Shown here one piece after another: positions 32,655-57,100 of a stretch of DNA of 64,000 nucleotides (positions are counted from its first letter, which is position 1; every line of letters begins with the position of its first letter). The position numbers were made by a program, and so were the translations under genes. The notes beneath the pieces are model-generated. The model was not told where the DNA came from and did not search any database. It worked only from the letters and a program-made list of their open reading frames with translations. Source of the DNA: Petrosia ficiformis (taxonomy: Eukaryota; Porifera; Demospongiae; Haplosclerida; Petrosiidae); assembly GCA_947044365.1 (NCBI GenBank), contig OX345637.1, positions 2,647,001 through 2,711,000 of the forward strand, written 5' to 3'.

Positions 32655-34157
32655 CATTAGCCAGAAAACTAATTTCATAAGTGATGTTAATATAATTATA
32701 TGCATAAATAATTTTGTCACAAAACTAGTGCTATATCAGGTTTATAAACACTAAGTCGGAATGTCACATTCATGAGGTTACCTCATTCACTTCGAAACTT
32801 ATACTTTTGTAGAGTTAAGATAACACATAATTTTATCTGTTGTCCCAGGCAATATTAATTAATTAGCCTGTATTTTGTAACTATTTGTATCTTCACCTTA
32901 GTGTGATTGTCGTCTGTATTATATACATCTGGTTTTCAACCTGAAATATAATTGATCATAGTCATTGTTGTAATAGAACAATTAATAATCATTGATTCTT
33001 GTTCGCTTGATCTACTCTATACTGAAACTAAGTAAAACATAAACCAATCATAATGATATAATTATAATTAAATACTTTTTTCTCCAATATATAACAGTGT
33101 TTGTGTATTATAATTATAATCATATATGACTATATGAAAGTGAATATGGAATTTTAGTAATAGCTTGTATAGATATAATATATTATGAAGAATAAACCCT
33201 CTACATACATACTACATACTCAACTAGTTATTAGAACTTCATAGAACTTGATTATCAGTATGAGTTATACTATCTGTAGCTATAAGATGTTTCTATTTGG
33301 TGAGTTTATGAAAATACAAAAGCCATGTATTCTTGCATTAGTCCCATTCAAACATGAATAAGTATTTTATAATGTGGAATTATATAATCTTATTAGTACA
33401 TAGCAATGTGATGATGAAGAGTGTTTTAAATCCATGAAATCATGTAGTTTTACTTACATTCAAATTTGTCGTTTGCACTGAATCCAAATCTAAATTACAA
33501 TTATATTGCGGCTAAAATAAAGTTGTTAAAAATGTATTAGTTATTACATTTGCAAGGTAGAGCAGTTTGTCATACCATAACATGATATTATAAAGTAAAT
33601 TAAAGCTTAACGTATTAGTATGTTTGTAGGTTTCAAAGTAATTAAATTATGCCTTTCTAGGTTTCCAAATTAGTAAATTAGATTGTGTTTGTAGGTTTCC
33701 AAACCCTTTTGGTGCATAACATTTAGTAAGGTTACTATCAAAGTGTATTTCGTTGGCATTATAGTGCTTTGTTACAAGTATATTGTACTCTAACCATTTT
33801 AGTTGGTGTTTAATTTTGTTGCTAACGTACCATTCCAATCTTAATCGTTCCGTGTTTTTTTTCAGGAATTTATATCCCTATATATACATACTCTATCATT
33901 TTTTATGCTGTTTTTTTTATTATTTTTAGTGCAAAATAGTTGTGGCAGTTGCATGTCTGTATCAATACAACCTACACAACCATTAATACATACTACACAA
34001 ATGTACTAACATAGTTATTTTAAAAATTAGGTTTAGTTTATTGATTTACTGATGCAGTAAATTACATTCCAGTGATTGAGTTATCACGTGACAGCAATTG
34101 TTCATCAGCAGCTTGATTTTATACTTTCTACTTCCTAATTATCATCAGTTAAATGAA
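32655..34157. other. intergenic; upstream region of the NLR gene
   Basis: AT-rich, no gene seen. Just before the NLR start a three-codon upstream frame, ATG AAA TGA (34153-34161), overlaps the main ATG at 34158. Confidence 0.5.
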
Positions 34158-37100
34158 ATGATTGATCTAATACAATGGAGGGTTACTATTGGTACATGGT
34201 ATTGTTCCAGTTTTACGGGCAGTCACAAAAAGAAAAGATCCAAAAGAAGACTTGATCATGGAGAAGTGTCACATGCACACTCAGTAGATGAATGGTTGAT
34301 TGGATCACTGAGGTTATTACAAGCAATACTCACTGAAGCTGTCATATTGTCCCATTCACTTGTCATGAAACTAATGATACTACTATTACTATGTGGTGAT
34401 GTGGAGATTAATCCTGGACCTATTATTATAGGTGAGCTTTGTTTGTAATAATATAATGATTTGAAGTGGAAGTATTTCTCTATCACTTTAGAATTAACTG
34501 CCAATAAAGCATTGAATATTCTTCAACAGAGTGGTTTTAATATACCTGAGAAATGGAATAGACTTGCTGGTATCATAGGGATATCCATTAGTGAGAGAAA
34601 GAGGTTAAGAGAAGAGGCACAGACAACACAGGACTATCACTTTGCTTTAGAACAAGCATTGAATTTTTGGATATCAAATACCCCACAGACATCATGGGAG
34701 GAATTGTTATCAGCAGTTCAACAGTGTGAAGCTAATGAGGACGCTGTGACTACACTGAGAAAACTACTGGAAGTTGATTATCAGCAAAAGTGTAATGTAT
34801 CTTCTCAATCTTATTCCTGTAAGCTACTATGTAAACATAAAAAGGATAATGGTAATGCGTAATATAGACATGTCATAATAAAATATCCCTTCTATATAAC
34901 AAGTCATGCTTCAACCTATAGTCTGTCTAACCATATTCTTCTTATTTCAACTAACTGCTTGTCTACTGCTGGTTGTAGCTCTTTTAAGTGCCACGTCAAA
35001 TAAGCCACGTCAATTAATGGGTTAATGTTGTAATTAATATTCCTAATTATGTATGTACCATTATGTGACACAAGCATGTAAATATACTATATAGACTAAT
35101 CTCTTGGGTAAAAACATCAGGCCCTACAGGCCAAAAAATCAATTCCCATACCTACATAACTTATGGATATTTCATTTCATTGTACACATTCAGTACTTAT
35201 TTTACCATTGTGAAATGATTTCTGTACATAAGAGAAATGTTTCACCTTCATAATACATAATAATTCTATTATAAGTATTATACTTATGCTCAACATTTAC
35301 CTCCATTTAGCCTCTACCCCTGGAAAGACAATTAATACACGACTCATATACACAGATATCTTGCGAACCAAATGAGTTAACACCATTTAATATACTGAAG
35401 AGACATTTCTCTGAAATACTTGATGTCGTCTGTGACCCAAATAGACTTGCTAATGATTTGTGGGCTGTTGATATCATATCTAATGTTGTTAAAGATAATA
35501 TCGTATCTACTCCAAGTGTTCCTCGCTATGAGAAGGCCAGCAAACTACTAAATGAAGTACAGCGATCTCTTAAAGGCAATGAAAATCCAGAGACACTAAT
35601 TTCTTTGTGTAAAGTGCTAACCAATCAGAAAAACTCAGTGATATCTATAATATGTACAACTATGATGAAAGACTTAGGTAAGAAATTAAAATAATAGTCT
35701 TTAATTGTTACAAATATATCACATTCTCACACAGGTGTGTCATTAGATGTCACATCATCTGAAGTCACCTCTGATACCGACAGGTTCGTTCAAGGATTAC
35801 GTGATTCGTACCTTCAAAATCCTGTAGTATATAATGACTTATTAGATAGACGTGTTGGTGAACACAAGTTTGGACAACTAGGACTTATTAAGGGACATGG
35901 AGGATGTCTTTCTGAACCAGAAGGAATAAAGAGGTTGTGGTATATGTTACGAGGCAAAGTAGATAATATAATAAATGTATCAAAGAAAATGGGCATTCAA
36001 GATGTATTGAAACACAATGATGATAATAGTCCAATGAAAGTAGTAGTTGATGGACCTCCAGGTGTAGGAAAGACTACACTTTCTCATAAGCTTTGTAACA
36101 TGTGGGCTAAGGATGAACTGAAGAAATGTACCTTTGATCTAGTGTTTCTTATTTCTCTCAGAGATGAGGAAGCCTCATCAGCGGAAAAAATGTATGATCT
36201 TGTTTCTTTATTTCATGGTAGTAAAAGTATATGTGAAGTTGTTAGTGATGGTATTATAGAGACGGATAGTAAAGATATGTTACTAATCTTTGATGGATGG
36301 GATGAGTTTAAGGGAAAAGATCAAAACAGATCATTTATATTGGATATTATTGAAGGAAAACACTTACGCAAATGTAATGTACTAGTTACCTCACGTACAT
36401 ATGCTTCAGCAAAACTTCTTCAACTACAGAGTGTTAATCGTCATGTTGAAGTATTAGGTTTTGAGGAAAAAGAGATTTTTTCATACATCAGGAAAGAGCT
36501 GACTGAAGGGAATGCTAAACAATTAATAAAGGAATTGAAGACTAGGGAAGATGTCTTGTCATTATGTTATATACCTTTTGTATGTTCCATGTTAGTGAGA
36601 GTTTATCAGCTGAGTGGCTTTATTCTTCCTAACACTTTGACTAAGTTTTACAAGAAATACGTTCTTTATGCTATAAAGAGATTAATGAAAAAACAACAAC
36701 ATGATCCAGACACAGTTGAATCACTTGAACAACTACAAGAAGATCAAAAGAAAGCATTTGATGAACTTTGTTGTTGTGCTTATGAGAAACTGAAGACACA
36801 AAATACCACTTTCAATAGAAATGAAGTTTTAAAGTTATCACATTCAATGAAGTGTGAACATTTTGGATTAATGAACTGTTACAAGATAGCAGACACCACT
36901 AAACATCAGTTTCTTCATCTAACCATTCAAGAATTCCTAGCGGCATGGTGGATAACTCACCATGATGATCAGAAAGTGCTGTTTAGAGAACATTTCCATG
37001 GAACTCACTTTCGCATGACGCTAAGATTTGTGGCAGGCCTGACTGAACTTAGAGATGACAGTTATCAAGAGTATTTCAGTAAAGAAGTAGACTTACAGTG

Positions 37101-38868
37101 TATAAGAAAACCATTGTTTGGTTTTGAATCTCATCAGTACTCATTGATTCATCCGAATCCACAATTGCTTTGTGATGACATTCGAAATATATTCTGCTGG
37201 ATTAAATATCCTCTTCATGAACCCTATTATGATACAGAAACTATACAATTACTTCATCTAATTTACGAGTCACAAAACAAAGTATTGTGTCAAATATTTG
37301 TTTCATACATTATAAACTCCTCTCTTTGTGTATATAGAGTGAATTCATCACAATTTGATTTATTGTGTTTGTCCTTTCTCCTGAAGAACTCAAAGATTAC
37401 TTGGAATTATCTCCATCACGAATATCTTAATGATATTCTGCAACTCACCAATGAACATTCCAACATGAATAATTGCCTTGTAATGAAAGCAGAATATTCT
37501 AATACCACATCAGTAATCAAGATGCACCAATCATCATTGTGTCGGTACATTCAAGAAAGTTATATCAACGTATTCTACACATCAATTCATTCAGTTGTTA
37601 TCATGTTCACACAACTGTTTGAACTGCCTCAACTGAATATTTTACATGTAGACATTAAACTGTTATCATCTCGTCATTCGGAAGATCGTATTGATAATGA
37701 ATTATTACTGGAAATGGAGAAGGTATTGTCTACAAACCATATAATTAAAGAAGTTTTAGTTAAGTTGACACGTGTGGAATTCAACTCATTAATAAATAGT
37801 TTGCTTGCTGGAGTAGAGAGAAATGATACAATTCAATTCTTTTCACTATCATCAGACTCTACTCATACTAAGTCATTACAAATTGAAGAGCTCTTGAAAA
37901 ACAACCAAACATTACAAGCTCTTAAACTGGATATACCTGTTACTGGAATACTGCCATCTCTATGTATCATACCAGTTAATGAATCTCTTACAGCACTAAA
38001 CATCAGTAATGATACAGTACATGATATCATAACATATTCTGTAAAGAAAAAAGAAATTTTGTCACCTGGATTAGAAAATGTTGGAAGAAATATTACTAAC
38101 TTGAAAAGCCTATCCCTATATAAACCATTGATGCCATTAATTATCTATTTAGATTCTAACCCTTTTCTACATCATCTGGATATAGTAATAGAGAGAGAAG
38201 GAAGTCTTAATGAACTATTTAATGTTCTCTCCAGTAATAGAACTGTTTTAGCTCTAAGAATAAACTTTCAAGACATTGGTTTGTTTCATGAAGAAGTGGG
38301 AAAATCTCTTCAATTGATGTTGTCATCAAACAAATCACTACAATGTCTGGAGATCAAAAGTCGAGCGTCCAATTGTACATTACTTATCAAATACCTGACA
38401 ACTGGTCTGAGAAAAAACAACATACTACAAGAACTGAATGTAAACATTAAATTACCAGAAAATATTAATTTTAAGGAATTCTTTGAAGCAACTGATAATC
38501 TAAAATCGCTGACAATGATATTTGACACATTGGTGGGGATGTCAGATCAGGTATTTATATCACGGTACTATCATGAAGGAATAATTCCCCATATTACAAA
38601 TATGTTGAAAAAAAATGAAAAAATAAAGTTCCTGAAATTTACATTCACATTCACAAATACTCTATCTGAAGTTACATATAAAGAAGACTGGATACCAGTG
38701 ATACATCAATTCTGGGGAACTGTGTTACTCCATCCATCGTTATGTTATGTTAACTTTCAGATATCATCTATTTTGTTAGATATACTCAACGATATGAAGA
38801 AAACACTGATTACTGAACGTAAAGATAAGCATCTTGGTCCACATCCACTAGTAGAAACATTGAAATAA
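34158..38868 (+). CDS. NLR-like innate immune receptor: 2A leader - Death - CARD-like - NACHT - LRR
   Basis: A cytosolic pattern-recognition receptor of the NACHT/LRR class. Exons: 34158-34431, 34492 to about 34796 (donor uncertain; 34818 fits a better donor but the wrong phase), 35311-35677, 35735-38868. The product is about 1360 residues. Exon 1 encodes a leader with a basic patch (KKKRSKRR), a hydrophobic stretch (KLMILLLLC) and the 2A motif GDVEINPGP. Exon 2 is a Death domain (ALNILQQSGFN; WNRLAGIIGISISERKRL). Exon 3 is a six-helix CARD-like domain (LKRHFSEILD to MMKDLG). Exon 4 holds NACHT: P-loop GPPGVGKTT near 36050, Walker B LLIFDGWDE near 36285, sensor VTSRTYAS, then a winged-helix-like region. 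Irregular leucine-rich repeats run from about 37640 to the end (NLKSLSL, NPFLHHLDI, NKSLQCLEI). All frames are open. Oligomerisation and Death-fold signalling are inferred from the family; the ligand is unknown. Confidence 0.9.
34395..34421 (+). other. 2A ribosome-skipping motif in NLR leader
   Basis: Codons for GDVEINPGP match the 2A consensus (D-V/I-E-x-N-P-G-P) at every fixed position and directly follow a leucine-rich hydrophobic run. By known 2A behaviour, the ribosome would fail to join Gly87 to Pro88 part of the time. This would release an 87-residue leader and a receptor starting with proline. It ends 10 bases before the exon 1 donor. Confidence 0.85.
34492..34818 (+). other. Death domain exon of the NLR
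   Basis: A single exon encodes a complete six-helix Death fold with the conserved tryptophans (KWNRLAG; ALNFWI; SWEELLSAV). The 3' boundary is provisional: 34796 keeps phase with exon 3, whereas 34818 has the better GTAAGC donor but would shift the frame. Confidence 0.8.
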
Positions 38869-39810: not shown

Positions 39811-41626
39811 TTATTCTTTAGACATTGTCCTTTTTCTTTTGCAATTGGCAGCAGCTTTTTTTTTCTGGCAGTCAGGACATAACCATTTACCTTTAGGGAC
39901 ACAACTGATTTTAAGACAGTCAGTGTGAAACCAATCTATTTCACAATGTCCACTTTCACATTGGATCATTTGACCATGCTCCTCTTTTCGGCAGTAACAC
40001 CAGACCTCCTGAGCAGAAGCTTCTTCTTCCTGTTCAACTACTACGGAATCAGTTGTGGAGGGCAGTTTGGTGTAATATTTACCAAGGAGGTCAGGCAATA
40101 ATACATATTTGAAAAACTCCATTGACTTTTCCATAGCAGATCTAATAAATGCCTGGTCTCGTAGGATTCTTTCAATGGTTATGTCTTTTTCAGACCACAC
40201 AACAAAGTCGCAGTTCAAAGTCTTACATAACTTCATTTGTGCTTGCACTTGGTGGTAATAGGCATGTGTTTTCTTTAGATGGTATTTGCCGTCAACAAGC
40301 TCTAGGAAGGAATTTTTATCACCTGTCATTTCCAGAAATGTCTTATCTCTACATGAGTACGGACATTTAATTTCAACAACACCTCTACCACAACAAACAC
40401 ATTGCACAATTCCATCAGGTGATGCACCCATATGTGGATAATCTGTATTAATCACAAATCCACTCACTGAAACAACCAAATCAGCATGATTTGTTTCAGC
40501 TTTTTGAATGTACTTGTCTAGTGCAATTTTCTCATGTTTACACCCCCATGCAGTAGCCTTACACTTGAACTGGTAGCTTTCAGGGTAACATATTCTCAGG
40601 ATCAATGATCGTGAGGATTGGATTATATCAGTACACAATACAGACTTCAATTTTGATGCAGTTATTCGGCCTGCCCTCTGTTGGAACCATATCTTGGATC
40701 CACTCTGTTTCCGTGTCTTCTCTTCGACCACTTTTGCCTGTTCAGGTGATACTTCCAAAGATGCAAAAAATATTTCACACTGAGTCAAGAGATCCGGATA
40801 ATTAAGTTTCAGGTACTTTCCCTCACAATAATCAGTGAGAGGACTTGGTAATGTTCCTTTTTTGTACAATGGAATATAAGCATCTGAGTACTCGAGAACT
40901 AATGACAAAATAACTGGTTTCTTCTCAGTATTAGACAGCTTCTTATAGAAGGCATCAAGCTCACTTTTGGTAGGAGTAAGCTTTCGCATGGAGTCAGCTC
41001 TAGGGGTACTGCTATTGCTACTACAGGGTGTATTACAATTGGCCTTCATTCTCTTTTTTGGGTCTGTACAGTTAATATTTGAGATGAGTGCAAACGGAAC
41101 ACTCTTGAATGTAGGGGGTAACCAAGAGCAAGGCATTGAGGTGCATGACAGAGATTTTCTTGCTTGAACATTAGCATCAAGTGTAAAAAGAATTGCAGCT
41201 GTGTGAACAAGCTTCACCAAGGGCCTGCCATACAGTCACAGTGCACACATATCACCACACCATCCATTTTAGCAGCAACCCATGCCTTAGCAGGAGGCAC
41301 TGATAGCCTCTGAGAGTGCTTGATTTTTGCTGTGACCAAGAGCTTGTCACTAGATGGAATAGCAGAAACTTTGATGTTAAAGACCCAACCATCAACAAAT
41401 TGTTTGTACCCTTCTAAGCTTTTGTAAGCTCTAAGTTCTTGCATAGTATAAGGGCTAAGGATAAGTTCTGCCAATCTAAACTCTCAGTGTCTTGATCCAT
41501 TGTGATATAGGGGTCTGTAATACCTCCTAGCAAAGCTAACTTCTCCTTATAACAAGATTTAGAAGACTCTTCTAAGCTGTAATAGTAGCTTGACAACGAA
41601 GTTAGCTTAGCCATGACAGCTGACAC
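39811..41626 (-). pseudogene. transposon SWIM / YqaJ-nuclease / PHD protein, frame-broken
   Basis: Convergent with the transposase. From the N terminus: SPYTMQELRAYKSLEGYKQF; a SWIM zinc finger (CDCMAG then, after frame changes, HTAAILF); a YqaJ exonuclease domain (WFQQRAGRITASK, GCKHE, HMGASPDGIV, VVEIKCPYS, HQVQAQM); and a PHD finger (CYCRKEEHGQMIQCES, WLCPDCQKK). YqaJ motifs with the catalytic D, E and K are intact in one 469-residue frame (39811-41220). The SWIM finger is broken at 41214-41225 by an extra C and a missing CA. Another frame change lies near 41465. Such proteins form the second gene of ISL2EU-type DNA transposons. It may act in DNA end processing during transposition (inference). 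Confidence 0.85.
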
Positions 41627-45100: not shown

Positions 45101-48100
45101 ATTATTGCAGTTATCATAATATTTATATTGTAGTTATTGTAAATTAAATTAATTAATAAAAATAGTTATTTGTACTAAGTGAGGATCTTGTTTCAAGGGA
45201 ACTGTCACATGACAAGCAGTTAGGAAAAGTGTGTTAGTCTTGAGTGTGGTGTTATGAATATCATTAAGAATGAATATCATTATGAATATGTGCTCACAAT
45301 AATATTAACAGTCCTCATCTATTACATAAATGTACCTCTGGGTAGGTGAGTGAAGTGGGAGGATGGTGATTTAGATTTATAAATTTGGATCTCTAACTGA
45401 TAAATCCTAAGACTGAGAATACCCTGGATTGGGAACATAAATGCAATGATCATCAACCTCACTCATGACTAACAAATATAATTATGATCCCTTTAATGGC
45501 TTGTAATAAAGTTATTTATATTATTCGTGATAATTATCGTATTACATATTATAATAAACTATATAATACACTAATATAATGAACACTGTGAAGATACATT
45601 AATTCACTGTTCTGTATAAACAGGTTTATGGAGTCAACAAAATACATCTGGACATCCTCCTTTAGGAGTATATGGTTATTCATCATGTACAATTAGGAAC
45701 AACATATATTATTTCGGAGGCTTGTGTGGTCATGATAGTTGCCGTCACAACAACTTATCTTCTTTAAATGTAGAAAACGTAATGTTTAGAAAATTATATA
45801 CAACAAATGAAAATGAAAGTGCCCCTGTCAAGAAAACAAATAGTGGTATGATCTCTTTTCAGACAGAAAAAAATGAAGAATCTCTTTTAGTAGTTGCAGG
45901 AGTTTGTGAAGATTCACCTAGATACAAACAACCTGGAGCACAATACGAGTCGGATATTTTTCGAATTACCACCTTTACCAATGAGTCACATATATTTAAT
46001 ATTACAACTGGTGAGTATATCATTGCATCATACTATCAAATATCATTATAATGTGTTGTTTGATTGTAGTTTTGATATTTATGATGAATACAAAACATAA
46101 CATGAAGCACCTTTGGTGCGTGGCCTCGCCGCTGTAGCTTAAGGATAGGTTGCAATTGCAACAATTAAATAAATGAGATGCAAGAGAGAAAGTAACAAGC
46201 TTAAATTTGAATTGGTTGTTTATATAAAGTTGAATGTTGGTTGAGAGTTTTTCGTGGCTAGACTGATTTCTGATAAATTTAAAAACACATGGAAGATGAC
46301 TAAGAATGATTCTCCATCAGCTATACTGCTTTGCACAACAATAACTACATTACTTACAGTCAAATTACATAATATACTCTTCCAACAAAATTAATATTCA
46401 TTACCTCATTCATTACCAAAATATCTATGCCACAACTGTCAGTTACTAAAGATAATTATCTTATAATGAATTGTACATTGTTAAAACTACAATGAGCAAA
46501 AACATTGAACTTACAGTTCAAATATATGTAATTTGAAAGTCAAACAAAAGTTCAATAATAGCAGAAAGGAAGGTATTGCTCTAAACTGACCTCCACGTTT
46601 GATCTCACGTGATCAAATTGGGTGTGGCTGAGGGTGTGGGTTATTGCAAGTAAATGGCAGAAACTTGAGAGCTTACAGAGATAGAATGTATGAGTCTGTA
46701 ACTTGATAAAACAATGTCTGTGGCAAATCTGTTTTCAATACGATTTTGATAAACTTCTTTCTCTGCTCTATCAAGTCTTTAAATCGACGCTTAAAGCATC
46801 TGCCTAGGATGTGTAGTGAGTTTAGCATTTTCCATTCTAAGTAACTTTTCATACAATTTACTTTGTTATAAAAACAATAGAGCAATAGAAGACCATGTTT
46901 TTGAACGGATCAGAAAGTTTGGTGGCTGTAGGAGGTATGCGTTTGAAGTTATAACTGTTCAAAGTAAAAAAAGTTGGGAAGGAATGAATGAATAACTTGC
47001 TAAAACAATGTCTGGGGCAAATCTTTTTTCAATACGATTTTGATAAACTTCTTTCTCTACTCTATCAAGTCTTTACATCGACGATTAAATTAAAAAAGTG
47101 GGGACAGACAGAATGAATGAATGAATGAATGAATTACAGAATAACAAACAAAGTGCTAAAGACTCGCCCACGTGTAGGCGCGGCGAGCCCAATAATCATT
47201 AGAACTAATAATTTTATTGTGTGATGTTTATTAAGATAGTAATCTTGATCATTAGCCCTTCCCTAAACACCTAACCACAAATAAGAGAAGTCTGTCCTTC
47301 TGTCATTCAATCTATAGTTTGACCACAGGTGTTGATTCTTGTTGTGTAATTAATTATCAATTTGTATTTGTGGTTTATTATGTAAAAGTTTTTCCCCACC
47401 CTTTGTGGTTGATTGTGCAATAGTGAACTGGACAGCTACCAGCTGGTTTTTCTCTGTCAATACTTTTGTATATAATCTCAAATGTTTTTGTTCAAATGTA
47501 TAATATCTACAAATAAAAATTACAGTCCTCAAATTTGTCAATCTATTCGAGAAGAAAATCACAAACATTGGTCCGCCGAACCGGATACCATTGAACACCT
47601 ATTGCTATCTGTTTTCATATGTACTATAGTATACCATGAGCGAAAATTCACATGTCCACAAAAAACGAAGAGGAGTTGCTCGTGCCCCTCCATTACCAAA
47701 CTTAGCGACAAAGTCGCTGAATTAGAGACATTGACAAGTAATCCGGATACTCTTACCATAGCACAGAGTCTGGTTGGCAGACTGAAGGATTTAAACACTG
47801 ATTTCAAAACTCATGACTTAGCTATCGTTGATCTGATCGATGATGAGGAAGAATTAAGTATGGAACAAGATGCCCTTGACCACCATGACGACAAGATAGT
47901 CGAGATAGAAGCTCACCTTCAACGACTGATATCTAATCTTGCTTCAGCATCAAGAATTGATCCCAAGAGAACAGTACTAAAACGGCTGACGCAAGTAAAG
48001 GAAAAATTACGGGTCATTGGAGAATCCGTGAGAACTGCCTCGGAAGACATGGATGGTATTTGTAAACTTCATCAACATGAAGAACAGTTGTCAGACTTTA

Positions 48101-51100
48101 AGGCTGATTTGAGGGAAATTCGAGCCACCATCCTGGGATTTTATCTAGAATCCACTGATACTCTTGTTGAGGAACAAACATCTGTCGAATCGACCATTTT
48201 TGATTGCTCCTTGGCTATCAAGAGACGACTTCACTCTAAACCCAGTGAAGAAGGCAGTGGTAATACCGTTTCTCCAGGGGTAAAGCTCCCGAAGCATGAT
48301 GTTCCCACTTTCAATGGAGACATCCTGAATTGGAAAAACTTTTGGCAGCAATTCCAAGTATTCGTCCATGACCGATCAAGCTTGACAAACACCGAAAAGC
48401 TAGTTTATCTACAGAATTCTATCAAAGATGGCACTGCAAAACACACAATAGAAGGTCTCACGAAATCTGGTGAGCACTACGAAAAAGCAGTTGACTGCCT
48501 GAAAGCACGATATGATCGTCCCCGTATCATACACCAAACACATGTACGCAAAATATTGGAAACTCCTAGTTTGAAGGACGGAAGTGGGAAGGAGCTACGC
48601 ACTCTTCACGACACTGTTGTTCAGCACTTGCGAGCATTGAAAAGTATGGGACACGAAACACCTAGTTCGTTTGTTACATCCATGTTGGAGCTCAAACTCG
48701 ATAGTAACACGATGTTAGAATGGCAGCAATACAGCCAAAAATATGCTGACGTTCCTAACCATCAAGAATTGTTGGAGTTTATTAACCTACGAGCACAAGC
48801 AGCTGAAGCGACACATTCCGAGAGAAAGCAACCAAGGAGTATCCCACCTATCTACCATGCTAGCAAACCCTTCAAGGGGAACTCATCCCACAAACAAGTT
48901 AATTCATTTGCTGCAAGTACTCAGTCCACAGGAAATTGTCCAGCATGTAAGTCCACAACCCATCCATTGTATATTTGTAATAGTTTTAAATTGTTATCCC
49001 ATGATAACAAGATTGCTTTATTGAAAGCCAATGATTATTGTATCAATCGCTTACGCCCTGGGCACTTTATCAAGGATTGCAAATCCCTGCATCATTGTAA
49101 ACGATGTCAGAGGCCACATCACACATTGTTGCATATTGAGAATCAGGAAAATCAAAGTAAAAACATCGGTACAGATCTCGTGACGACCAATTCACATCAT
49201 GTATCAGTCGGAATTGAACCCAATATGTTGCTTATGACCTGTCAAATTCTCGTAGAGACTCCTCAGGGAACTGTTAAGGCTCGAGCCCTTCTAGATTCTG
49301 CATCTTCAGCATCATTTGTATCCGAGAGGCTTGCACAGACTCTCCAACTTCAACGTCTTTCTCAGAGTGCTAAGATATGCGGCATAGCCAATTTGAACTC
49401 AGACACTCGAGCATTTCCCATAACAAAATTTGAAGTTCGTTCCTTACACTCAAATCGTTCCCTTCGTCACAAACACAACGTGAATGCTGTCATTGTGCCA
49501 CGTGTCACTTGTGATTTACCGGTACATACACTTCCTTTTCACAAAGAATGGAAGCACCTCGAAGGTTGGAAACTAGCAGATCCTAAGTTCGGAAGACCGG
49601 GTAGGATTCATATCTTACTCGGAGTAGACATATTCGTGAACGTTATACGTCAAGGCCGGCGGAAGGGATCCCAAGGTTCACCAATGGCTATTGAAACTGA
49701 ATTTGGTTGGGTCCTTGCTGTATGACCCCAGAAGAACGGACAGTCATGCGTCAATTCCAATCAACACACTCACGAACCCCCGAAGGTAGATTTGTGGTAC
49801 CTCTCCCCAGGAGAGTCATGGATGGTCAAATAGGCGAGTCTAGATCCCAAGCAGTACAAAGATTCACGTCTTTTGAAAGGTCACTTCATGCCAAGCATCA
49901 ATTCAATGCAAGTTAGGGATGAGTATTTCAAATCCCAACATGCAAAAGAACTTCCCAAGGTTGATCTAGAGAAACCCCCATATCAAGTGTTCTACTTACC
50001 TATGCACGCTGTGCGTAAAGAAACCATCACGACCACCAAAGTTCGAGCAGTTCTTGACACATCAGCCAAATCATCAAGTGGAGTTTCTCTCAACGACACG
50101 TTATTGGTAGGACCAACTACTTTGGTAGATGTCCTCATGCGTTTTCGAATGTATCGTATTGCATTAACAACTGAAATTAGTCGTATGTATCGAGCAGTTT
50201 TATTAACGAAATTCGATAGGGATCTTCACAGATTTGTAGGGCGTTCAAACCCTAATACCCCCCTAAGGGATTATCGCATGACCAGAGTCACCTTTGGCGT
50301 TTCAGCATCCTCCTTCATAGCTAACATGTGCGTAAAACAGAACATTCTTGATTTTGCTGTTGACTATCCCGAAGCCGCCCGAGAAACCACCAAGTCATTC
50401 TATGTTGATGATGGGCTTACTGGAGCTGACACAATTGAAGAAACGATAAGGTTACAGCACGAATTACAAGAACTATTCAGTAAAGGAGGATTCCTACTAC
50501 GGAAATGGATTTCGAGCAGCCCAACCGTATTATGTCGTATTGATCCTGAGCTCAGGGATACCCAATCAACCATTTCAATTTCTGATCCTGAAGCCAGTTA
50601 CACAAAGGCTTTAGGAATCGAATGGAGTTCACACCATAACACCTTTAAACTCACAATTGCTGCTCTCCCACCTATGGAAGCCTTAACAAAACGAGCTCTT
50701 GTCTCAGACATTGCCAAGACATCTGATGCATTGGGATGGTTCTCACCTGTCATTGTGAAAGCAAAAATATCCCTAGATGCTATTACCCCAAAGATGTCAA
50801 GGTCGTTTCAATTCAACTCCATGGATTTTCAGATGCTTCAGAAAAGGCATACTCGGGAGTCGTATACCTCAGAATGGAAGACCCAAACGGAAGTTCATAT
50901 ACGTCCTTGGTGATGTCAAAAACTAGAGTAGCACCTATCAAGAGACAAACCATTCCTCGTTTGGAGCTTTGTGGGGCACTCTTGTTAGCCCAATTGTTAC
51001 ACAACTGTAAAGAAGTGTTGAATGTACCCATGGAAGATGTTTTCGCTTGGACTGACTCCACCATAGTACTGAATTGGATTCAAGGAAATCCCCGTCGATT

Positions 51101-54100
51101 CAAGACATACATGGGGAATCGTGTATCTCAGATTATGGATCTCATATCACCGAGTCAGTGGAGACACGTGAATGGGACGGAGAATCCGGCCGATTGCGCC
51201 TCTCAAGGTTTATTTCCGTCTGAGATCCTAACCCATCACCTCTGGTGGGAAGGCCCCCTTGGCTCAAGACTACTCCAAACGAATGGCCTATTCATGCGAG
51301 TCCAGAAGTCGACCTGAGCTCAGAAGATCTTGAGTTATGTTCATTTGTCACAACTACAACCCTTAACGTTGTACCCCTCATCCCATTTGACAAATTCTCC
51401 TCGTTCAGCTACTATACGAGAATCGTTGTGTGGATCATCAGATTCGGCAAAAACTGTCTCTCTAGAAAACGAAATGTTAGCCATAAAACTGGACCATTGT
51501 CGGTACAAGAACTTAATCAAGCCAGTAATTACTGGATTTCCATCGTACAGGGCACTTATTTCCACAAAGAAATTCAATTGCTCAAAAACAGACTCGAGCT
51601 CTCGTCCAACAGCACACTGCTATCTCTCAATCCCTTGTTGGATGACCATGGTATTCTTCGTGTTGGCGGAAGACAACAAAATGCGAAATTCTCCTACAAC
51701 AGTAAATACCCAGTTATCATCCATGGTAAGCATCCTTTAACCAAACTGTTAATTCGTTCTGAACATATACGCCTTTTACACACTGGTTCACTGTTATTGT
51801 TTGCTTCTCTATCACGTGTACACCATATTATTGGAGGACTAAAGCAGTTCGATCAATAACCAGAAGTTGTGTCACCTGTCGACGTAGATCATCTCGACCG
51901 TCACCACAGATGATGGGCTGACTTCCCATTGAACGTATCACTCCTGACGCAGTATTCAGCAGAACGGGCATTGACTATGCTGGACCAGTTTATGTAAAGC
52001 AAGGCTACACTCGTAAACCAGTAATACTCAAGGCTTATATCTGTGTATTTGTTTCTCTTTCAGTCAAAGCAGTTCACTTGGAACTAGTATCAGACTTGAC
52101 CTCTGAAGCATTCATAGCATGCTTGAGAAGATTCATTCTAGAAGAGGAAAACCGACCCTGCTCTGGAGTGATCATGGCACCAATTTTGTTTGATCCAAGC
52201 GTATTATTCAAGAATTATTTGAGTTTTTACAGAAGACCACCGTGAATAAAGTGATAGCCAATTTCTGTTCTAGTCATGGAATACAATGGGACTTTATACC
52301 AGAGCGGACACCAGACTTCGGTGGACTATGGGAAGCTGCAGTTAAAAGTCTAAAGACCATTTATTATTATTTATTATCAATTTGTATTTGTGGTTTATTA
52401 TGTAATAGTTTTTCCCCACCCTTTGTGGTTGATTGTGCAATAGTGAACTGGACAGCTACCAGCTGGTTTTTCTCTGTCAATACTTTTGTATATAATCTCA
52501 AACTTTTTTGTTCAAATGTATAATATCTACAAATAAAAATTACAGTCCTCAAATTTGTCAATCTATTCGAGAAGAAAATCACAAACAACAGGCATACAAT
52601 ACTATTATACTATATACAGTGAATTTAGTGATACTATATAGTACTGTGTATGTTATGAACTTATTAGTACTTCATAGGGTGTGTATATGTGAGACGACAC
52701 TAAGTCAACAATACTAAATCAACACTTCCTAGTTATACTTATGATAATCAGTGTTACTATCTTTATCTTTAGGGAAATGGATTACACCAAATGTCACTGG
52801 TAGACGACCTCCACCATGCTCTGACTTTACTCTCTTATCGTTATCCGGAAGTAGAGCACTTCTATATGGAGGAAGAACTCGTGATCCATTATTCAGTGAT
52901 GTAATATACATAGCTACTATAACTGGATATGAACTAGTGAGTATAATAATTATAGTTAACTCTTTGAACGCGGGGGCAGTAAACGTCATTCACCACAATC
53001 ACGCGAGCGTTGTTTGACCTTGACCTTTAAATTTTATTTTCAAGAAAGAAGCTTCTTGTTGAGTTCTAAGCATGTGGAAAGCTTAATTATGGACGAGATG
53101 AGCAACCTTTGTAAGGTTTAGACTATCAGTGGAGGTTTTAAAGAAAGACGCTGACACAGAGAGCTCAAGTAACCATCAATCATTTTCTCATAATCTGCTC
53201 GATGTTTGTTGGTATGTTGGATACTCTAGACACCCGGAGACAGTGTGCAGTTGAGTACTGATCATGTTTCAGCGAGTCTTCACAATCTAAGGTATGTTTC
53301 TGCTTTTTTTCATAGTGTAATATGTAACTATATATATGTGTATATATACAAAGAGAGAGAGCTAGATAAATAATAATTGAATACAAGTATGGTTGTGTGC
53401 CTAATAATTATGCTTGTACTGTTGTATGAGAAAACATATAGTAAGGATGCATTACTGTATGTATGTGTATATATATATACAAAGAGAGAGAGAGAGCTAG
53501 ATAAATAATAATTGAATACAAGTATGGTTGTGTGCCTAATAATTATGCATGTAGTGTTGTAGGAGAAAACGTAAAGTAAGGATGCATTGCTGTATTACTT
53601 ATAGATATCTAGTAGGATCTACATATGTATGGTATAATTCGAAACATGGAACAATACATAGGCTGACGTCACACTGTTTACACTTGTATGTTGATGTCTT
53701 CCTTCCTCTCCCTTTTTTGAAACTGCACACTACACATTCCAGCTGTTTAGTTTTACCACATTGCCGCTGGTCTACTTTTGTAGGGAAGTGACGTTCTGTA
53801 AGACGAGCAACAGAGGGAAGAGAATGTTTGCATGACTGATGAGAATTTCCTGCTATGTCAAATCCAGTCCTGTTCAATAGTTCCATTGCCAGCTGTGTTC
53901 TGAACTGTTGATGTGATAGTTGTTTTGATCCATCAGTTGATAGTTTATACAAAATGTAGGAGTTCACAATAGCCAGGTCTAACAGGTGAAAAAAAGTTCT
54001 CTTCCACCATTTAATTGTTCGATGGTTGAACCCATAGTAAGATAGTAACTGATCTGCCTTGTCCACTCCACCCATATATGTATTGTATTGCTCAACCATC

Positions 54101-57100
54101 ACTGGTTTTTCTATTTCTTCCCTTCCCCCTACAGCATGTCTAGTTCGTCGTCGTTTGGAAATGATGTCATCATTATGGATTGTGCTCAGCATGGTCACCA
54201 ATCGTTTATCCTGCCATTGTAATGCGATAAGTCCCTCGGATATCTCTACTGCTCTAACATCTCCTTTGTTTATATCAGTCTTATTCCTAAATTGTTTGGG
54301 CATCCCCCTTCTGTCAACACGTACAGTTCAACACGCACCAAATCCCAAATGATTTAGTTCTGTATATAAGGCTGGACTTGTATAAAAGTTATCCGTATAT
54401 ATATGATGGCCTCTAGGTAAACATTCAACCAGCTGGATAACTGTTGCATGTGTTACGGTCCGATCTTGAGTTGATAGAGATTCATCTTTACCTATGAAAA
54501 GAAGATAATTATAGGAAAATACATTTTGATGTTCAAAAAAAGGAGACAGCTATAACACTTACCAGTATATAAGCTCCAATTATAAGTATATCCAGTTTTT
54601 GAGTCAGCTAAAACATAAGCTTTTAATCCCCACTTGTTAGGTTTTTTTGGTAGATACTGGATAAACCATATCCTACCCTTAAAACTCACCATAGATTCAT
54701 CCACTGCTAGCTCACGACTAGGGTTGTATGCAAATTGGAAATTGGATAACAGAGGTCTCAAAATTGGCCTTATTTTAAATAGTGGGTCATAACCAGGTTC
54801 ACCTTTCCTTTTGCTCTTTTTGTTGTCATTGAGATGTATGAATTTTAGAATCACAGAGAATCTATCTCTGGTCATATTTCGTGAAAAGGCATTTGTGCCA
54901 AAAGGCCAGGTTTTTACCCAGTAGTCATCTATTCTGGGATAGTGAATGACCCCCATAATAATTATTATGGCTATGAATTGTAGTAATTCTGTAAGATTAT
55001 GTATCTTTTTCTTCCAGGTATGAAGTCTTGATTGCCTGGGAATATCTGGATTTGCTCCAAAATGTTGATCAGCGTACAGATTTGTCTGAGTGACTATGTG
55101 GTCCAAAATGCTATCAGTCATAAGAAGCTGGAAGTAGTCAATAGGTGTTTTGTTTGACATATCAAGGCTACAAGCTGGTCCTTCTGCAAAGTCCTGATTT
55201 TGACTGGCTTCTCTTGAAAAGCATCCATTACTATCAATACCATCACTGTTCTCTGTCATCATTTCACCATTTGTTTCCTCAATTTCTACCTCTTCATTAT
55301 CGTCATTGCCTTCATTTGCATCCATCATTTGCATCATTTCTATTTCATCTACATAGCCATCAAATTCATCTCCACTGTCGATTTCATCTTCTGGTCCATC
55401 TAATAATTCCAAAAACTTGATCTGTGTTGTATCTTGCCATATTTTTGGAAATAGTAATTAATAATTTGAACTCTTCACTACTAAAATAACAAAGGAGGGG
55501 CTCTCATAGACCTGTGGTAACTTACTGTAATAATTTTAGCACCTGCGCATATATATATATGCGCACCGCGTTCAAGCATGTTATACGCATGCGCATATAT
55601 ATATGCGCACCGCGTTCAAAGGGTTAATATAATATGAAACTGATAATCATGTGGTCATTAATAACTACAACAATAACAATAAAACAATCAAGTATAATAT
55701 TAAGAAAATACTTGTTTTATAGTCCTATAATAATCTTCACAGCAAAATTGCTAAATTCAATACCAGCCAAATGTAGATATCATGAAAATTGCTAAATTAA
55801 GTACATGCAAACAATAGTCACCTTAAGATATGATTAATAATTATACTGGTGACTATTGTTTATAATATATTGTATAATTGTTGTACATGTATGTTTATAA
55901 TTGATCATGTTTTGTGAGTGATACATGTCATATGAACTGTTATTATATTTCTATAGAATTGGGAGATAATACACAAACCAGTAGGAGAACATCCAATGGA
56001 GAGGTTTGGACATGCAGCCACTGTAATTAGTGGTTGTGTTCAAGAGATAATGATAACAATAGGAGGACAGTGTAAAGGTTGGACGACACTGAATGATTGT
56101 TGGGTGATGGATGTTAGGAACAACAAACACAAAAAGGTATTATACATTTGTTATTATTATCACATGATGATCATGAGACAGATAATTATTAAGAATTTTT
56201 TTATAATACTAAATTGATGTATGATTTGTTTGTTTATTTGTTTTGTAATGTCAACACAATCTTGAGACTGTTGTATAAAGTGTGAGGAGTATACATATAT
56301 CTACAATCATGTAACAAATTTGTTTGTTGTTTAGCTAATTAGACACAATCCATCAAAATTTCCATATTATAAACAGGATATCACTAATATTTATATATCT
56401 GTGTATCTAAGATAATAGTCTTAAAGCTTCTGTTTTCAATATCCTGTGACATACATGTGATATTCACCTGATATAATGATTTAGAAATACTATAGACATG
56501 TGTTGTGATTTTCTTGTAATAATGAAGTCATATATACATAACAATGTATTGTAATTCTACAGATACTCTTACCAGATAATGTAAGTAAGAGATTTTACCA
56601 CTCCTTATCATCACTTGCTATAAGTCCAACAAATGTATTACTTGTTGTGTTTGGAGGAAAGAGAAGTGGTTTTGTTCTTGATCCAATCAGTGATACACAT
56701 GTTATTGAACTCGGTGAGTATACACATTTCCACACATTCTCATTTGTATAATTATTATTATTTCTTATCACTGGATATAGACTGTGATGTATATTAAATG
56801 AAAAATTCATGCATTTTGTGAATTTTAATCATTCCTGAGTTTCTAATTTAATTAACATCCTGTATAAATATACTGTTCATTATATTATTTGATGATATAT
56901 ACTGTTTCAAGCTAGTGTTATATAAACATGTTATTATTACAGTCATATTAGAATTTGTTTATTTATCTACCCTACTGTATTGTATTTGGAGACAATATCA
57001 CTACATTGTTCTATAGTGCTATACAAGATGATGTATATTGTTACCTTTACAGATTTTATTATATATTTTAATCAAATGTAATGATTGTATTTTTATACAT

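Follow-up and report, generated by a model that had tools for sequence, protein, structure and literature searches.

The leader described here, which ends in an exact 2A motif in front of a Death-fold and NACHT gene of the sponge Petrosia ficiformis, is in our judgement a working StopGo element that would split a hydrophobic leader peptide from a cytosolic receptor, a reading to which we give a probability of roughly 0.8. The motif, its frame, the phase of its splice sites, its sharing between genes and its retention are established from the sequence; splicing itself, the skipping activity and the cytosolic product we infer. By the window we mean the whole analysed stretch of 64,000 nucleotides (contig OX345637.1, positions 2,647,001 to 2,711,000); loci and contigs elsewhere in the genome are given by our L and C handles.

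In the proposed mechanism, the ribosome would start at the methionine codon at 34158, make a head with the residues QWR and then a hydrophobic run, and skip one peptide bond at NPG/P (StopGo), whereby a leader peptide of 87 residues would be released. The downstream receptor would begin with proline, continue in intact family members with Death-fold, CARD-like and NACHT domains, and reside in the cytosol. The leader exon would be a cassette ending in a phase-1 donor, common to NLR-type and ankyrin-repeat genes of the sponge, and a relative of it appears to begin the protein of a Helitron-like element.

The 2A core and its leader exon

GDVEINPGP is the exact translation of window positions 34395-34421 (+), inside an open frame that spans 34092-34448, and it agrees with the core consensus [DGCN][VI]ExNPGP of StopGo/2A elements, as the original prediction had said of every fixed 2A position. 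The hexapeptide in front of it, LLLLCG, is L-rich with CG before the D and, by sequence match, fits the permissive context. The leucine-rich hydrophobic run that had been described before the core is likewise there (AVILSHSLVMKLMILLLLC), with a 19-residue Kyte-Doolittle mean of 2.28, and a comparable segment adjoins the core in 58/58 leader rows examined.

We searched 191,215,263 bases in 29 contigs. The DNA pattern for D[VI]ExNPGP gave 205 matches genome-wide (106 + 99 in two pattern searches) against 0.067 expected by base composition in the 191 Mb genome, and reversed-pattern controls gave 0; GDVEINPGP in the window is not due to chance. The exact string GDVEINPGP was found 19 times, and the D[VI]ExNPGP matches often differ by synonymous changes in the core. 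The looser pattern DxExNPGP returned 229 matches, a surplus that includes the stop-bearing GACTAGGAATTGAACCCAGGACC, a class removed by requiring D[VI]E.

The window leader comprises 88 residues, beginning with MIDLIQWRVTIG, passing into the hydrophobic stretch and terminating in GDVEINPGP. Its predicted layout consists of an acceptor-like CATCAG at 34143-34148, 9 untranslated bases, 88 codons and a phase-1 donor after 34431 (Table 1). The leader probably starts at M34158, a start that the original prediction had missed. A short leader from M34365/M34374 (MKLMILLLLCGDVEINPGP) was rejected as the main start: the conserved in-frame head at M34158 rules against it, as does the lack of a methionine at the corresponding position of the DVES, DIEL and ankyrin leaders. 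The splice pair 34431/34492 proposed earlier is sound by sequence, with the donor ATAG/GTGAGC and the acceptor CACTTTAG/AATTAAC in phase 1, and across the joint the frame reads III-E-LTANKAL into the Death exon. This in-phase joint, together with the Death-fold matches of exon 2 given below, bears out the claim that the 2A lies in frame before a Death domain. All 16 Death-exon loci tested have an acceptor in phase with the leader, and in 15 of them the residue boundary is the same.

Table 1. Coordinates of the features of the window gene (positions in the window)
Feature	Position	Strand	Basis
Leader exon (predicted)	34149..34431	+	flanks of 58 leader rows
Out-of-frame ATG AAA TGA (last four bases overlap the leader start; some paralogs only)	34153..34161	+	
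Conserved leader head MIDLIQWRVTIG, putative start codon at 34158	34158..34193	+	2A-blind head patterns
Hydrophobic segment AVILSHSLVMKLMILLLLC, residues 61-79	34338..34394	+	directly 5' of the 2A core
2A/StopGo core GDVEINPGP	34395..34421	+	translation, motif match
Predicted separation point	between Gly codon 34416-34418 and Pro codon 34419-34421	+	2A consensus
Intron 1, phase 1 (predicted)	34432..34491	+	in-phase splice sites
Exon 2, Death-fold domain	34492..34818	+	Pfam, AlphaFold2, Foldseek
Exon 3, CARD-like/death-fold domain	35311..35677	+	structure model, Foldseek
Exon 4, NACHT and C-terminal region	35735..38868	+	Pfam

Upon examination of the flanks of 58 leader rows from 57 distinct loci (53 host rows and 5 element rows, including L034 as a repeat of L001 and the identical leaders L003/L004 and L077/L078; L082 was left out as a repeat of L066), we found the last AG 2-13 nt 5' of the ATG in the 53 host rows. 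A GT donor-like site, read by eye, follows the core by 4, 7 or 10 nt and always in phase 1 in 52/53 host rows; the sole exception, L007, has no donor after the core, and neither, by eye, do the five element rows. In class A_DVES, identity, 0.4-0.5 farther upstream, reaches 0.95 some 16 nt before the ATG and declines past the donor. The step at the exon edge is smaller in class A_DVEI, and in the young class B_DIEL a fair degree of similarity extends upstream (identity 0.5-0.9). By its acceptor and donor sites, its conservation edges and the fitting splice phase, the leader behaves like a cassette exon, which a 5' untranslated exon would precede. Leaders in the NLR rows are 73-92 residues long. 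At position 1121 of L061, about 440 nt behind the first core, a second DIELNPGP with a donor stands without a leader, which we read as a partial duplication of the leader end.

The leader across NACHT genes, ankyrin genes and mobile elements

The search for the core upstream of other NACHT genes that had been suggested did find it there. A Pfam NACHT search scored 103 matches out of 249 candidates, a count that is a lower bound, and an intact 2A lies within 5 kb upstream on the same strand of 65 of the 103. At the same limit, both controls (same-strand 2A downstream, opposite-strand 2A upstream) gave 0/103, and 1000 runs with random shifts of the 2A matches by up to 50 kb averaged 10.5 and never exceeded 20. 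Widening the limit to 8 kb yielded 68 upstream same-strand, 7 downstream and 1 opposite, and at 20 kb the counts were 74, 23 and 2. The cores within 8 kb upstream of NACHT comprise 33 DVESNPGP, 20 DIELNPGP, 12 DVEINPGP and three others. For 35/103 NACHT matches no intact 2A lies within 8 kb upstream, and L039, 4.4 kb upstream of one such match, has neither head nor core.

Seven DVESNPGP cores constitute a separate C3/C4 class (GATGTGGAGAGCAACCC) at C3:2.01-2.30 Mb and C4:1.37 Mb; six of them sit in the C3 NLR region, and the leucine-rich run is present. We rejected this class as kin of the QWR leader: the three leaders read (L071-L073) have no QWR head, and the sequence behind L099 gave no cargo assignment.

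Among 78 core-bearing frames read, 59 have a head of the strict pattern M-[IV]-x-x-x-[QE]WRxx[IV]G. The other 19 include eight DIEQNPGP elements, further element-type leaders, three leaders of the C3/C4 class, the second partial core of L061, and L021, L030, L035 and L060, which are host-type or element copies with a truncation, a shift or a head just off the pattern. The head of L079 reads QWRASSG, also off the strict pattern.

Leader heads were also sought by two DNA patterns blind to 2A, which returned 91 + 38 = 129 heads, with reversed controls at 0. An intact core follows within 500 nt on the same strand in 120/129 and is in frame in 119/120, the one pair out of frame being at C9:5285955. 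Before the last six matches were added, head-core spacings took 21 values between 165 and 267 nt, of which 20 are multiples of three. Setting aside four element-type and two chance-like heads, by our own classing, leaves 123 host-type heads, 119 of which keep the core, 118/119 in frame. The host-type heads with broken frames at C1:25258601 and C1:53892577 (L087, L088) lack such a core; at C11:5317099 the core lies 724 nt from the head, and the NLR-type leader at C10:4978756 (L089) reads GDVETNPGL, NPGL replacing NPGP, which makes it a candidate for a naturally skip-dead leader. The remaining coreless heads are three decayed or cut element-type copies and the two chance-like ones.

Substitution patterns point the same way for the core, with pN/pS values of 0.00-0.34 inside classes and of 0.21 when NLR classes A and B are compared, although the core was ascertained by pattern and the 2A-blind head count is the fairer test of selection. 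The mid-leader has pN/pS of 0.65-1.10 within classes and the hydrophobic part 0.32-0.96, values that do not indicate strong constraint. The core is retained even though the Death exons of other leader classes share only 29-44% identity with the window's. The head of A_DVES (20 rows, first 16 codons) has a pS of 0.001 and a pN of 0.033, with a pS of 0.26 in the middle; head pS is 0.19 in A_DVEI and 0.18 in A_DVEKQ. The A_DVES conservation suggests either gene conversion or additional constraint close to the acceptor, and because there is almost no synonymous change, part of it may act on DNA or RNA.

NACHT genes are not the sole bearers of the leader. At L029 and L102 the leader exon precedes ankyrin-repeat exons, and by sequence 14 of the 91 first-pattern heads are ankyrin-type, these two being the ones confirmed as ankyrin. 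Ankyrin-type leader loci lie at C2:12.11-12.20 Mb, C11:4.20-4.23 and 5.27-5.32 Mb, and C12:2.44 Mb. Homology of the first domain of the ankyrin proteins to exon 3 was considered and dropped (hhalign probability 7%).

A further bearer, L086, has the QWRxxIG head, the hydrophobic run and D[VI]ExNPGP as the host leader does, as do its relatives; unlike the host leader, it has no intron after the 2A. Its cargo starts zinc-ribbon-like (Pfam below cut-off), and a PIF1 helicase lies about 5 kb behind the leader (Pfam E 1.8e-22); in the 7.5 kb read, one 124-residue frame between the two matched no family. Leader and helicase would belong to one Helitron-like element. Leader relatives of L086 occur at L010, L012, L016, L020 and L084, and the second blind head pattern returned four copies of the element head ATGATTGCCATACAACAATGGAG.

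We compared these leaders with a profile made from the NLR-type leaders minus the core and six residues, for which a control of 2000 shuffles gave a best E of 0.053. The two ankyrin leaders (L029, L102) matched at E 1.8e-8 and 1.2e-7, and the Helitron-like relatives at E 2.7e-5 (L010/L012/L016) and 0.002 (L020), for rows picked by the head pattern, which favours a match. From this likeness we infer common descent of the Helitron-like leader and the host leader. L097 (C5:4138595), a further leader type reading MIDHEQWRVCIGMW...LLSGDIELNPGP, matched at E 2.9e-9. For L037, considered together with L021 as a possible relative, the head reached E 0.057 and so did not improve on the best shuffle; no decisive frame turned up in the 6 kb that follow (L083). 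In viral contigs, two pattern matches to leader relatives were seen, neither confirmed.

Odon et al. reportedly described, in 2013, the 2A of APE-type non-LTR retrotransposons. Like these, the sponge's non-LTR type elements L025, L032, L100 and L101, which encode a PHD finger, APE or RT, have a 2A close to the protein start. Their tested leaders (L025, L100, L101) are unlike the host leader profile, L101 reaching E 31 and the other two being absent from the matches listed. A non-LTR retrotransposon origin of the head was set aside: the tested PHD/RT leaders lack a profile match, and the element that does match precedes a PIF1 helicase. The DIEQNPGP core occurs in 15 dispersed copies; the one scanned, L018, encodes DUF6570 without a QWR head, and its leader does not match the host profile (E 5.9). 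DUF6570 is presumably a domain associated with Helitrons.

Predicted skipping, the leader peptide and known 2A systems

In all 58 leader rows, an L-rich hexapeptide with a final G stands in front of the core; it closes with [SCA]G in 57, KLILWG being the exception. The L-rich StopGo motif 6 is reported to work in reticulocyte lysate (PMC12846837). In vitro, an NLR 2A of the sea urchin is reported to separate at about 80%, a qualitative estimate, and when it was disabled its cargo went mainly to the Golgi (PMC4981915). Because the sponge hexapeptide resembles motifs 2 and 6 and the sea urchin NLR 2A separated, separation is likely here as well. The hydrophobic run is preceded by 46-65 residues in the 53 host rows (31-65 across all 58) and ends 3-10 residues before the released C-terminus, and none of the 58 rows holds a second run reaching 1.6 (maximum 1.25). 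Because the run adjoins the skip site and has no second run beside it, the released leader would resemble a tail-anchored peptide, a reading that fits at least as well as one through the secretory route. If the skip failed, this run would act as a signal-anchor in the fused protein.

Several other readings bear on these observations. If the leader were a transposon-derived relic without translational function, translation would start downstream and the leader would be untranslated or dispensable; the 2A sequences of Helitron-like and non-LTR elements in the P. ficiformis genome and the few broken NLR-type leaders would fit, but an intact core behind 119/123 host-type heads, in frame in 118/119 over many spacings, and a splice phase that fits at 16/16 loci make this very improbable. 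We attach just as little credence to an exon conserved for splicing or regulatory sequence with the 2A as a passenger: synonymous sites vary in the A_DVEI and A_DVEKQ heads (pS 0.19, 0.18), length changes come in threes and synonymous core variants are common, against which stand the near-zero synonymous change of the A_DVES head and the start of A_DVES conservation at the acceptor-like site. Dual targeting, in which a failed skip would leave the leader as a signal or signal-anchor and send the receptor along the secretory route and a successful skip would leave it cytosolic, seems to us doubtful. A hydrophobic 19-mer is present in 58/58 leader rows (best mean 1.52-2.98, above 1.6 in 57), and SpNLR2A6 of the sea urchin is reported to do both (PMC4981915); that element, however, is a 26-residue N-terminal peptide, whereas 46-65 residues precede the run here. 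Moreover, the run would still be in the ribosomal tunnel when the skip happens, so that targeting could not decide the skip, and a lumenal Death-NACHT protein would have no obvious use.

It is conceivable, and would add to the StopGo reading, that the released leader is a product in its own right, one tail-anchored micro-peptide per receptor, with its QWR head in the cytosol. The position of the run and the lack of a second one agree with this, as do a mean net charge by class of +2.4 to +6.5 before the run and of -2 to 0 in the tail, and a head retained across NLR-type, ankyrin and Helitron-like cargoes. Against it, the mid-leader evolves fast (pN/pS 0.65-1.10), the charge before the run is not net positive in some rows (A_DVES minimum 0), and L-rich runs before 2A may serve the ribosome tunnel only (PMC12846837). 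More tentatively still, the StopGo leader may be a mobile translational module that has passed among NLR-type genes, ankyrin-repeat genes and Helitron-like elements and supplies whatever gene follows it with a tail-anchored peptide, released during translation and having a job of its own. If so, the StopGo leaders of immune receptors and of transposons would have a common origin, whichever way the transfer went, and a membrane peptide would accompany the synthesis of every receptor.

The earlier statement that 2A had been reported in invertebrate NLR-type genes has a real precedent in the sea urchin (PMC4981915), where the SpNLR2A share of the S. purpuratus NLR family is given in two counts, as about 35% (85/241) and as 14/87 entries (PMC4981915, Roulston et al. 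2016). The sponge genes resemble Strongylocentrotus purpuratus SpNLR2A in that D[VI]ExNPGP lies N-terminal of Death-NACHT genes behind a hydrophobic run and in that a large share of the family carries it (here 65/103 scored NACHT matches). Unlike SpNLR2A as described, a 26-residue N-terminal peptide, the sponge NLR leaders have 73-92 residues with a QWRxxIG head and form an exon of their own, common to ankyrin genes and a Helitron-like element. They are also like the viral L-rich StopGo motifs 2 and 6 (Li et al. 2026, PMC12846837) in the L-rich hexapeptide, in [ASC]G before the D and in the S that often follows the E. By contrast with these motifs in viral polyproteins (PMC12846837), the sponge leader has a head, an intron and an immune cargo.

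2A is already known in sea urchin NLRs and in non-LTR elements, and its occurrence in cellular genes is described as rare (PMC12846837). Among the best-ranked papers, a set with thin coverage of subscription papers, we found no report of 2A in sponge genes, of a shared QWR leader exon or of 2A in Helitrons, a silence that is weak evidence of absence. A term search of the Dysidea NLR paper gave no passage for ribosome, for skipping, for 2A peptide or for signal peptide. The sea urchin authors called speculation on the kinship of cellular, retrotransposon and viral 2A fruitless, the sequences being too short (PMC4981915). In the sponge the motif is part of a longer homologous leader, its splice phase is fixed and its copies number more than 100, so that descent can be traced rather than guessed, and with the leader in two host gene families and a Helitron-like element, the origin of animal 2A is open to direct test. 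The pairing of 2A with NLRs is now placed in a sponge, far from echinoderms, and the sponge leaders are a natural variant set for measuring how StopGo is used in splitting immune receptors.

Domains and surroundings of the window gene

Behind the leader, exon 2 scored 21.3 bits against Pfam Death, slightly below the cut-off of 22.6. Its AlphaFold2 model has a pLDDT of 87.4, and its best Foldseek matches are FADD/Fas Death domains (probability 1.00 but E 0.08-0.18); a profile of the Death exon matched no PDB sequence at E 1. Exon 3, for which no Pfam family matched, gave a model with a pLDDT of 81.8 (first 17 residues below 50) and Foldseek matches to the Fas DD and to the CARDs of RIG-I and Apaf-1/caspase-9 (probability 0.99-1.00, E 0.09-0.15). 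On these models, the gene appears to possess the N-terminal death-fold effector domain of NLRs, with no Foldseek match at E <= 0.001. NACHT lies at 36040-36504 in exon 4 (Pfam E 5.5e-26), and an NLRC4_HD2 match in the same exon stayed under the cut-off. No LRR family was detected in window exon 4 at Pfam E 0.1, nor at E 1 in the C-terminal piece 37240-38865 (0 families) or in the paralog exon L081, a search that diverged repeats below Pfam's reach could escape. The label of NLR receptor in the original prediction stands as regards NACHT and the death-fold domain, and the leucine-rich repeats of an NLR were not found; because no LRR family was detected, we use the term NLR-type.

The window copy is probably not a full receptor. 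Near 35328 its exon 3 lacks 2 bp relative to L003, L004, L006 and L008, a deficit that the original prediction had missed; the comparison uses these four paralogs, as L001 and L005 do not align at the indel site. Spliced as in the paralog, the copy meets a stop after residue 221. The missing 2 bp would leave it frameshifted unless exon 3 is skipped, which keeps it open for 1244 residues; the paralog at C2:2845482 is open for 1367 residues. Since the consensus quality of the assembly odPetFici3.1 is reported as 62.8 (PMC12648040), a real indel is likelier than a sequencing error.

Mobile-element frames flank the gene in the window: one at 39811-41232 (-) with YqaJ plus a PHD-like match, one at 47476-49722 (+) with DUF1759 and a weak aspartyl protease match, and one at 53599-54324 (-) with DDE_Tnp_1_7.
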